Assembly (NCBI RefSeq): GCF_015670745.1
Contig: NZ_JADPCH010000008.1
Span: 1-64,000, forward strand
From: Collinsella aerofaciens
GTDB taxonomy: Bacteria > Actinomycetota > Coriobacteriia > Coriobacteriales > Coriobacteriaceae
Length of the DNA: 64,000 nucleotides
Direction of reading: 5' to 3'
Part shown: positions 50,628 to 53,862 of the stretch, piece by piece
Numbering within the stretch: the first letter of the stretch is position 1
How the letters are laid out: each line of letters begins with the position of its first letter
The notes under the pieces: model-generated
Databases searched by the model: none
Told to the model about the DNA's origin: nothing
The model's input: only the letters and a program-made list of their open reading frames with translations
Made by a program: the position numbers and the translations under genes

Positions 50628-51623
50628 CTAGGCGCCGATCTCGGGAAGCTCGGGAACATTGGTGTCGCCCGTACGGTCGCCGATGCAGATTTGCCACAGC
50701 TCGGTCCAGGTGCCATCGTCCTCGATCTTCTTAAGGAAGTCGTTGACAAAGGCGACGCCGTCGGAATCGAGCGGCAGGCCGATGCCATAGGGCTCCTTGC
50801 TGCCGAAGGGCTTGCCGGCAATCTTGTACTTACCGGGCTCGCGGACCAGGGCGCTCTGCTGCATGTTGTTATCGATGACGTAGGCATCGACGCGGCCCTG
50901 CTGGAGTGCCTGGCGGGCCTCCTCGTCGGTCTTGAACTCCTGCTGGCTGGCCTTGGGGGCGAACTCCTCCAGGATGGCGGGGCCGTTGGAGCCGGACTGG
51001 ACGGCGACGTTCTTGTCGGCCAGGTCGTCGACGCTCTTGATGTCGTCGTTATCGGCGAGCACCAGGATAGCCTGCTGGGTGTAGTAGTAGGGACCGGCAA
51101 AGGAGACGAGTTTCTTGCGCTCGTCAGTGATGGTGTAGGTGGCAAAGACGGCGTCGACCTGGCCGTTTTGCAGGACGGACTCGCGCGTGTCCGAGGTCAC
51201 CTGGGTGATCTCGACTTTGTTCTCGCCCAGAATGTAGTTGGACAGGAGCTGTGCGATACCGGCGTCGAAGCCGCGGGTCTGGCCGTCTTTCTCGTTGAGG
51301 AGGGAGAAAAGCGTAGAGGTCTGAACGCCACCGATCTTAAAGACGCCGGCGTCCTTAACGGCCGTGGCCCAGGTGCTGGCGGCGATGGCATCGTCATCGG
51401 CCTTGGGGCCATTGTCGACGAGCTTATCGAATGCCTTAGCGTCGAGCGTGGTGGAAGCCTCGGTATCATTGGAGCTCTTGGAAGAGCCGGCGGCGGAACC
51501 CTTGTCGGCCTCGGCGCTGGTGTCGGAGCAGCCGGCAAGACCAAGGCCGGCGACGGTTGCGAAGGTGGCGGCGACAAAGCCGCGGCGGTCGAGAACGACC
51601 TGCTGGGAGAGGTTCTTGCTCAT
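50628..51623 (-). CDS. Amino acid ABC transporter substrate-binding lipoprotein (probable Tat substrate)
   Basis: The 331-residue protein has a signal with twin arginines (DRRGFVAATFATVAGLGLAGC), where Cys32 is the lipidation site. A Ser/Ala/Asp-rich spacer of about 40 residues follows, then a periplasmic-binding-protein fold of the glutamate/glutamine type (TLFSLLNEKDGQTRGFDAGI, PYYYTQQAILVLADND). It should capture an amino acid outside the cell for the permeases and ATPase encoded downstream. The RR pair suggests Tat rather than Sec export. GAGAAAGGTG precedes the ATG. Confidence 0.9.
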   Translation of the reverse strand: MSKNLSQQVVLDRRGFVAATFATVAGLGLAGCSDTSAEADKGSAAGSSKSSNDTEASTTLDAKAFDKLVDNGPKADDDAIAASTWATAVKDAGVFKIGGVQTSTLFSLLNEKDGQTRGFDAGIAQLLSNYILGENKVEITQVTSDTRESVLQNGQVDAVFATYTITDERKKLVSFAGPYYYTQQAILVLADNDDIKSVDDLADKNVAVQSGSNGPAILEEFAPKASQQEFKTDEEARQALQQGRVDAYVIDNNMQQSALVREPGKYKIAGKPFGSKEPYGIGLPLDSDGVAFVNDFLKKIEDDGTWTELWQICIGDRTGDTNVPELPEIGA

Positions 51624-51736: not shown

Positions 51737-51775
51737 CTACCTACCAAAAAGGGACAGGCACCTTTGTGGTGGTCC
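51737..51775. repeat. Degenerate CCTGCCAAAA/GGGACAG repeat
   Basis: CCTACCAAAAAGGGACAGGC is followed by ACCTTTGTGGTGG, a partial right arm. It lies upstream of the binding-protein gene, close to its promoter region. Confidence 0.65.
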
Positions 51776-51807
51776 TGGCCGATGCGGTGGCATGCCTTGC
51801 TGCTTTG

Positions 51808-52023
51808 TCTCAATCTGTAACATCTGCAGCCGTTTTTGCCGAGTAACTGTTACAGATTGAGATTTTCTCTTCAGGGGGATTCGAATGTCTCGATCTGTAA
51901 CATCTGGACGGACAAAAGGTCTCTATCTGTTACAGATCGAGACAAACGTCGGGGACTAAGATGTCTTGTCTCGATCTGTAACAGTTAGACGGGAATTCGG
52001 GCCCTAGGTGTTACAGATTGAGA
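51808..52023. repeat. Array of six alternating 15-nt half-repeats with 25-nt spacers
   Basis: TCTC(A/G)ATCTGTAACA and its reverse complement alternate at 51808, 51848, 51888, 51928, 51969 and 52009. The intervals are 25, 25, 25, 26 and 25 nt, giving a 40-nt period and three tandem 55-nt hairpins. Pairs 1/2 and 3/4 are perfect; 5/6 has one wobble. Loop starts are alike (TCTGCAGCC, TCTGGACGG, GTTAGACGG) but the rest of each spacer differs. It fills most of the 457-base gap between the lipoprotein and dxs genes. Confidence 0.9.
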
Positions 52024-52040
52024 TAATCGCGCCGCGAAAA

Positions 52041-52080
52041 TAAAAACCTCCGCGGGGGTGCTTCCCTTGCGGAGGTTTTC
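52041..52080 (-). terminator. Intrinsic terminator of the DXS-like gene
   Basis: On the minus strand AACCTCCGC pairs with GCGGAGGTT around a 15-base loop and is followed by TTTATTTTCG. It begins directly after the stop codon. Confidence 0.85.
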
Positions 52081-53862
52081 TTACTCGTTCAGTAGCCTTG
52101 CGGCTTCGGCGGCCATGTTCTCGACCGTCATGCCGTTCTGTGCGAGCAGTTCGTTGGGGTCGTAGCGGTCGGGGAAGCCCTTGGCGATGCCGAAGGTGCG
52201 CGTGCGCAACGGCGTGCATGCCAGATAACATGCCACGCGCTCGCCCCAGCCGCCGTCCAAGATGCCGTCCTCGAGGGTGACGACAACACGATGCTCGGCG
52301 GCAAGGCTATCGAGGAACTCACGGTCGAGCTCGGTCGCAAAGCGCGGGTTGACGAGTGTGGCCTCGATGCCGTACTCGGCGGCCAAGCGGTTTGCCACGC
52401 GCTCGCCCAGCTCAAAGAAATCGCCAAGCGCGAGCACGGCAACGTCGCGACCTTGGCGCACCACGTTGTAGCGCGCGATGCCGTAATCGGTGTCCTCGGC
52501 AGGTGCCAAATCGGGGCGGCTTACCAGGCCAATACCAGGCACACGAATCGCCACGGGATGCTCGCGGTGGTCGAGCGACCAGCTCAGCATGGACAGGTAT
52601 TCCTCCATGCAGGTCGGCGCTAGGTAGTGCATGTTGGGAAGAGCGTCCAGCATGGAAATATCAAAGAACGAAAGGTGCGTCTCGGACGTGGTGCCAAAGA
52701 TCGACGCACCAAACACCAAAATGGTTGCCGGGGCGTCGTTGAGGCACAGGTCGTGCCACAGCTCGTCGTAGGCGCGCTGCAAAAACGTGCCGTACACACC
52801 AAAGACTGGCTTGGCGCCCGAGCGCGCAAGCGCGGTGGCAAAGGTCACGGCGTGCTCCTCGGCAATGCCCACATCGACGAACTGTTTGCCGGCGGCAGCG
52901 CGAAGCTCGGGTGTAAAGCCCATGATGTAGGGTGTGGCGGCCGTGATGCCCACGACCTGCGGATCGCGCTCGATGGCGGCGCTGAGCGCCTCGCCCGTAA
53001 TGTCGGCGTAGGTGCGCGGCGCAGGCTCGCTCGGATGGCCCGGGCAGAGCTTGCGGCCGGTCGCCATGTCAAAGGGGCCTACGTGATGCCAGCGCTCGGG
53101 GTCGTTTTGGGCCGGCTCAAAACCCTTGCCCTTGGCGGTGGAGACGTGCAGCACGATGGGATGATCGATATTGCGCAGTTCCTGCAGCGCATCGACGAGG
53201 GCCAACACGTCGTTACCGGCGTCCAGATAGCGGTAGTCGAGCCCCATCGCGCGGAAAACGTTGCGCTCACAGGTGCCGTTGCTGGCGCGCAGCTCGGCCA
53301 GATTGCGATAGAGGCCGCCATGGTTCTCGGCAATGGACTGGTCGTTATCGTTGACGATGATGATCAGGTTGCTATCGAGTTCGGCGGCATTGTTAAAGCC
53401 CTCAAACGCCAAGCCGCCCGAAAGCGAGCCGTCGCCAATGATGGTGATGACGTTGTACGCATCGCCCGCCAGGTCGCGAGCGTGCGCTAGGCCGCAGCCC
53501 AGGCTCACCGAGGTCGAGGTGTGACCCATGGCGAACAGGTCATGCTCGGACTCGTCGGGATTGGCAAAGCCAGAGGCCTCGCCAAAGCGCTCCGGATCGA
53601 TATAAGTGTACGCGCGCCCAGTCAGCGCCTTGTGGGCGTAGGTCTGGTGCGAAACGTCAAAGACAATCTTGTCGATAGGGGAGTTAAACACGCGATGGAG
53701 CGCGACCGTAAGCTCAACGACGCCCAGGTTGGGGGCAACGTGCCCGCCGACGGCGGCGGAGCTTTCGAGGATGGCGTGGCGAATCTCGTCGCAGAGCTGT
53801 GGGAGCTCGGCACGATTAAGAGCCTTGACGTCCTCGGGCGTTGTCGTTTGCGTAAGCAGCAT
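52081..53862 (-). CDS. dxs: Divergent 1-deoxy-D-xylulose-5-phosphate synthase-like protein
   Basis: The 593-residue protein has the thiamine diphosphate fold of DXS. HQTYAHKALTGR stands where HQAYPHKxLTGR is usual, and GDGSLSGGLAFEGFNNA is the TPP site. DVGIAEEHAVTFATALA and YGTFLQRAYDELWHD occur in the second domain. The conserved D-G-x-T-H-x-G motif is replaced by TTSETHLSF, keeping only the His, and the protein is shorter than the common 620-640 residues. It may be a true but divergent DXS or a paralogue acting on another acceptor. It would make DXP from pyruvate and glyceraldehyde-3-phosphate for isoprenoids or cofactors. Confidence 0.75.
   Translation of the reverse strand: MLLTQTTTPEDVKALNRAELPQLCDEIRHAILESSAAVGGHVAPNLGVVELTVALHRVFNSPIDKIVFDVSHQTYAHKALTGRAYTYIDPERFGEASGFANPDESEHDLFAMGHTSTSVSLGCGLAHARDLAGDAYNVITIIGDGSLSGGLAFEGFNNAAELDSNLIIIVNDNDQSIAENHGGLYRNLAELRASNGTCERNVFRAMGLDYRYLDAGNDVLALVDALQELRNIDHPIVLHVSTAKGKGFEPAQNDPERWHHVGPFDMATGRKLCPGHPSEPAPRTYADITGEALSAAIERDPQVVGITAATPYIMGFTPELRAAAGKQFVDVGIAEEHAVTFATALARSGAKPVFGVYGTFLQRAYDELWHDLCLNDAPATILVFGASIFGTTSETHLSFFDISMLDALPNMHYLAPTCMEEYLSMLSWSLDHREHPVAIRVPGIGLVSRPDLAPAEDTDYGIARYNVVRQGRDVAVLALGDFFELGERVANRLAAEYGIEATLVNPRFATELDREFLDSLAAEHRVVVTLEDGILDGGWGERVACYLACTPLRTRTFGIAKGFPDRYDPNELLAQNGMTVENMAAEAARLLNE

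Follow-up and report, generated by a model that had tools for sequence, protein, structure and literature searches.

Dispersed bacterial repeats are usually taken for selfish hairpins or for RNA elements. A trait of BIME and REP sequences is that gyrase, IHF or Pol I binds them, and rigidly spaced arrays of half-sites are known from clustered operators and centromere-like sites, where they serve cooperative protein binding. In the BIMEs of E. coli, REPs are regularly spaced and alternate in orientation, and these elements are bound by gyrase and by other proteins (PMC2817692). REPINs consist of two inverted, nearly invariant 15-16-mers on either side of a spacer that is fixed in length and less conserved; the spacers of REPIN hairpins pair, and compensatory changes are common (PMC3116915).

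The array described here lies in a 64,000-nt stretch of DNA (the window) and belongs to a set of Collinsella arrays which, like BIME-2 of E. coli, are tandem, intergenic, multi-copy, regularly spaced and alternating in orientation. Unlike the REP of a BIME, which is a palindrome in its own right and carries a GTAG or GTGG head, the Collinsella half-site TCTCRATCTGTAACA has neither a head nor a stem of its own; in further contrast to BIMEs, the arrays show no association with RAYT genes and the pairing of their arms is not selected. The unit resembles a REPIN in being an inverted conserved pair around a spacer of set length, but its loops avoid pairing, compensatory changes are absent and there is no tie to a RAYT. 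Repeats that are conserved, spacers that vary but keep a constant length, and losses of whole units recall CRISPR arrays, from which the Collinsella arrays differ in their alternating orientation, in patterned spacers that span species, and in ten flanking proteins that include no cas product. Compared with clustered operators and centromere-like sites, they are found at about 15-20 loci beside unrelated genes. Membership in REP/BIME or among the REPINs fails on traits that were tested, although the arrangement works like that of a BIME. The first-pass annotation of this DNA had set the array apart from ordinary REPs on the ground that these are not periodic, which is wrong in general, given the regular spacing of REPs in E. 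coli BIMEs (PMC2817692).

Architecture of the array and its repeat unit

The half-site of the window array, TCTC(A/G)ATCTGTAACA (15 nt), occurs six times, exact except at the A/G position, in alternating orientation and with successive gaps of 25, 25, 25, 26 and 25 nt (Table 1), which confirms the pattern reported in the first pass. With up to 3 mismatches allowed, 10 matches occur in the window against 1.3 expected, a number reached by none of 100 shuffles. The loops of the three units are almost wholly different from one another, so that the array is not the product of a recent triplication.

Table 1. Repeat units, linkers and neighbouring features of the array in the window.
Feature	Position	Strand	Description
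Dyad unit 1	51804..51866	.	half-sites 51808-51822(+) / 51848-51862(-), 25-nt loop 51823-51847
Linker, units 1/2	51863..51887	.	25 nt; few changes in orthologous loci
Dyad unit 2	51884..51946	.	half-sites 51888-51902(+) / 51928-51942(-), loop 51903-51927
Linker, units 2/3	51943..51968	.	26 nt; kept in orthologous loci
Dyad unit 3	51965..52027	.	half-sites 51969-51983(+) / 52009-52023(-), loop 51984-52008
Intrinsic-terminator-like hairpin of dxs-like gene	52043..52079	-	20 nt from array; separate ordinary feature
1-deoxy-D-xylulose-5-phosphate synthase-like (dxs-like) gene	52081..53862	-	Pfam DXP_synthase_N 7.7e-79; 3' end adjoins array
ABC transporter solute-binding protein family 3 gene	50628..51623	-	Pfam SBP_bac_3 2.1e-21; start 185 nt from array

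The repeated unit spans about 63 bp and can be written as WWYR-TCTCRATCTGTAACA-NNTAG-N6-WWW-N6-CTANN-TGTTACAGATYGAGA-YRWW, with a loop consensus of NNTAG-N6-WWW-N6-CTANN and an A/T-rich centre, and it recurs 1-8 times at 80-81 bp. A profile of 306 array ends places the edge of the unit about 4 bp outside each half-site, array ends included, and 163 of the 169 arrays from the window's own genome (G000) and other genomes have a forward half-site at their start and a reverse one at their end. The loop inside a pair is exactly 25 nt long in 433 of 438 cases, while the linker between pairs measures 25 (156 cases), 26 (108), 24 (10) or 23 nt (1), making loop length the stricter of the two (Fisher p about 1e-50). 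Since loops are fixed at 25 nt and linkers are looser, the inverted pair is the unit. The earlier view that loops and spacers share one length therefore holds for the loops and has to be relaxed for the linkers. The further suggestion that a 40-nt period, close to four helical turns, places all half-sites on one face of the DNA is only approximate: 40 bp correspond to 3.8 turns of B-DNA, and a scan for A/T periodicity, run once, showed no clear 10-bp peak and lent no support to DNA wrapping. As the 25-nt loop recurs in other Collinsella genomes and the differing loops rule out identical recent copies, the spacing signal first seen in the window stands.

Distribution and inheritance

When up to 2 mismatches are allowed, genome G000 (2.11 Mb) contains 102 half-sites, compared with none for a reversed control, and all but a few of these lie in about 20 arrays, each made of 1 to 8 inverted pairs, the longest with 16 half-sites across 617 bp. 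Array half-sites of the window's own genome carry 0, 1, 2 or 3 mismatches in 65, 28, 4 and 1 cases, respectively, with no decayed tail. Family matches were found in 23 of 43 Collinsella genomes, in one of these as a single copy, and in 24 of 247 Coriobacteriales genomes, all 24 of them Collinsella; among the 247, the family is restricted to the C. aerofaciens clade save for two probably transferred copies. The latter are single units in the distant Collinsella genomes G036 and G037 (L204, L205), set in DNA that is 95% and 92% identical to G000, respectively. The dxs region, by comparison, is 67% identical to G000 in G037 and has no match in G036, and because the flanks of the two units are so much closer to G000 than this region is, horizontal transfer together with the flanks is likely. 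Named records with the family are from Collinsella, many of them C. aerofaciens, with the exception of one Coriobacteriaceae record, and unrelated organisms contribute a few chance-level matches among such records. A literature search of incomplete coverage returned no relevant paper on the half-site itself or on Collinsella repeats, and half-site 10-mers matched unrelated papers only.

At the window's site, the array is kept in most array-bearing genomes, and its loops and linkers are usually the same; two genomes are one unit short, several have another first loop, the array is absent in L161, and the contig of L170 ends before it. Arrays at the L025 site hold from 1 to 6 units in a largely common order, and units are gained or lost inside arrays in steps of 80-81 bp. 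Near-identical partners in other genomes (0-5 differences) exist for 46 of 48 loops of the window's own genome, whose loops differ by 5-11 from nearly all other loops of the same genome. Orthologous sites, common loops and the gain and loss of units together indicate that the arrays are of long standing, have descended for the most part vertically and have been reshaped unit by unit, whole units being lost, gained and occasionally replaced. No target duplication is readable at L161, where a longer stretch is replaced instead of a clean empty site being left, and at a second candidate empty site (L022) many genomes carry rearrangements. In the L161 stretch (about 1395-1470), TATAAT and AAGGAG stand with a short ORF (MNGYSFFAPRK) before the dxs terminator, and in relatives of L161 this stretch is exchanged for a repeat and the array. 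In 3 of 18 genomes, unrelated DNA lies past the far end of one array (L215, L221 and L223 versus L208), so that the array edge coincides there with gene turnover.

Tests of constraint on sequence, spacing and base pairing

Between unrelated units, the half-site core, taken without positions 4 and 5, differs by 4%, the TAG by 35% and the N6 segments by 68%. Diversity within clusters of likely orthologues is about 0.02 for the core, 0.034 for the centre, 0.11 for TAG, 0.13 for N6 and 0.23 for the edges, the loop values being too low since these clusters were built on loop similarity. Two half-site positions are free, position 4 within C/A/T and position 5 within A/G, and in 361 distinct dyads they pair about as often as independence predicts (position 5, 52.4% versus 49.5% expected; position 4, 67.9% versus 68.1%). 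Position 5 in 75 non-redundant units gives 19 AU, 19 GC, 16 GU and 21 non-pairing combinations, and every measure of stem covariation in this set falls within shuffles; the outcome on pairing was checked by script and by tool, on redundant as well as non-redundant sets. The two halves of the loop form 3.94 of 12 possible pairs, compared with 4.98 (sd 0.14) for re-dealt halves, and are thus anti-complementary.

RNA of the window array folds far better than shuffles on both strands, with z about -13 for a stretch that takes in the dxs terminator, to which part of this value is due. The stability of the fold follows from the identity of the arm sequences and is not itself selected at the positions where this can be tested. 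Free positions without covariation, a constant core and a fixed loop length point, in these sequence comparisons, to selection on the half-site sequence, the A/T-rich centre and the 25-bp spacing, and not on hairpin pairing. Gene conversion between arrays could contribute part of the half-site conservation.

Position relative to genes

The arrays are intergenic and lie mostly beside 3' ends, at a median distance of 70 nt, and they are depleted between divergent genes: 15 of 120 gaps with arrays are divergent, compared with 87 of 259 others (p = 1e-5, an optimistic value because gene calls were crude and orthologues were counted separately). An intrinsic terminator between the stop codon and the array was seen on 49 of 129 gene sides and none on the remaining 80. 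The neighbours are ordinary genes and include dxs, ABC transporters, a heavy-metal ATPase, Nramp, glycogen phosphorylase, ClpB, LacI and DeoR regulators and PTS genes. With dnaA taken as the origin, the terminus-proximal 38% of the chromosome contains 2 of 17 arrays in G002 and 2 of 19 in G023. This avoidance of the terminus is suggestive and not significant (KS p = 0.12 and 0.09), in a comparison picked after the data had been seen and tried once.

Putative protein-binding sites and alternative readings

The reading that we favour, at somewhat better than even chances, is that the window array belongs to a family of tandem putative protein-binding sites that have dyad symmetry, resemble BIMEs and are specific to the clade. 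The conservation of sequence and spacing without covariation makes a tandem DNA-binding platform the best supported of the three roles proposed in the first pass, whose interpretation as a whole is partly supported. A protein dedicated to these sites, probably dimeric or in a higher oligomeric state, would read each half-site as double-stranded DNA and bridge the 25-bp loop, and tandem units would load several copies of it side by side. The bound array may then act as an orientation-independent boundary, either a transcription roadblock or insulator or an anchor for the nucleoid or a topoisomerase, a role suggested by the intergenic position of the arrays, near 3' ends and rarely between divergent genes. 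Such binding would parallel that of gyrase and other proteins to E. coli BIMEs. It speaks against sites of this kind that 15 nearly fixed bases exceed the specificity needed in a 2 Mb genome and that no clear 10-bp A/T period lends support to wrapping; a protein that reads RNA sequence rather than RNA pairing may be an alternative to one that reads DNA. TGTTACA resembles a parS half, but the parS palindrome is absent and the comparison was given up.

More tentatively, and with the balance of probability against it, the family might constitute a clade-specific nucleoid or transcription-boundary system unrelated to REP/BIME, in which a putative Collinsella oligomer on tandem 63-bp dyads, 80 bp apart, at about 15-20 loci that are sparse near the terminus, would organise the chromosome or insulate transcription units. 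If true, bacteria would have in it a counterpart to insulator arrays. The several hundred natural variants of the unit separate constraint on sequence and spacing from constraint on pairing, and on this pattern of constraint a specific DNA-binding protein is to be expected, one that should be findable in a bacterium common in the human gut, with the 216-bp array as a ready-made bait. Such a binder, if found, would show the role of such phased arrays, which is still an open question for BIMEs.

A selfish element of the REPIN or MITE type, in which the inverted pair is mobilised in trans by a transposase, becomes tandem by slippage and owes its conservation to transposase recognition, would account for a multi-copy unit scattered through intergenic DNA, its ends inverted and its middle variable but constant in length, for the gain and loss of whole units and the replacement of loops, and for the two units that the window array has in common with the array of L027, in reverse order. 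We nevertheless regard it as unlikely. RAYT-type genes are present in the genus, but they occur in array-free genomes as well and none is flanked by half-sites in G000, where three Y1_Tnp matches (C25, C33) include none adjoining a half-site. The compensatory changes that are common in REPINs (PMC3116915) are lacking, different species have inherited array positions and loops in common, single or decayed copies hardly exist, and the two copies in distant species travelled with flanking DNA. Of the mobile element with a fixed step envisaged in the first pass, the step itself survives in the 80-81 bp gain and loss of units, whereas the inheritance of orthologous positions and loops and the failure to find a mobilising gene weigh against mobility. 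Improbable, in our estimate, is an RNA element carried on 3'-UTR or read-through transcripts, whose tandem hairpins would shield the 3' ends of mRNAs or halt RNA polymerase. The stable predicted fold on either strand (terminator included), the median of 70 nt from 3' ends and the 80 of 129 gene sides without an intrinsic terminator before the array are in its favour. The RNA reading is weakened by the absence of covariation at the variable stem positions, where A-C mismatches are as frequent as either Watson-Crick pair (a result that weakens the earlier proposal of a three-hairpin RNA as well), by a constant loop length without evident RNA reason, by CAAA instead of a U run often following the half-sites, and by the separate terminator that already precedes the window array. 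Rfam searches at gathering and permissive thresholds yielded chance-level matches at most and no described family.

Two further readings fare worse. Inversion or recombination sites of the shufflon type, flipping loops or linkers, would be in keeping with the perfect inverted pairs and with one array site at which 3 of 18 genomes have a different gene downstream, but the relative orientation of the loops is constant in orthologous arrays read by eye and the ten array-flanking proteins include no recombinase, which leaves this very unlikely. A guide-RNA or CRISPR/TIGR-like array with the loops as spacers shares the conserved repeats, the variable spacers of constant length and the unit gain and loss; against it, repeat orientation strictly alternates, and the spacers are patterned (NNTAG, central WWW) and common to species at orthologous loci. 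The whole window array had no match in 50,697 phage records, nor was there a match in viral contigs, and a Pfam search of the ten flanking proteins revealed no cas-like gene. We consider the guide-RNA reading extremely improbable, and a CRISPR array proper was rejected on the argument, correctly made in the first pass, that CRISPR repeats are direct and not alternating.

Other intergenic repeats

Immediately to the left of the array, at 51751-51767 of the window, lies a second intergenic repeat, GGGACAGGCACCTTTGT(GGTGG), and similar sequence is present in other Collinsella intergenic regions (flanks in L159, L242, L244 and L246). In L243 and L248, an intergenic GAGCGTGGATAATCTCCC upstream of the query gene is common to genomes and has an inverted copy nearby.
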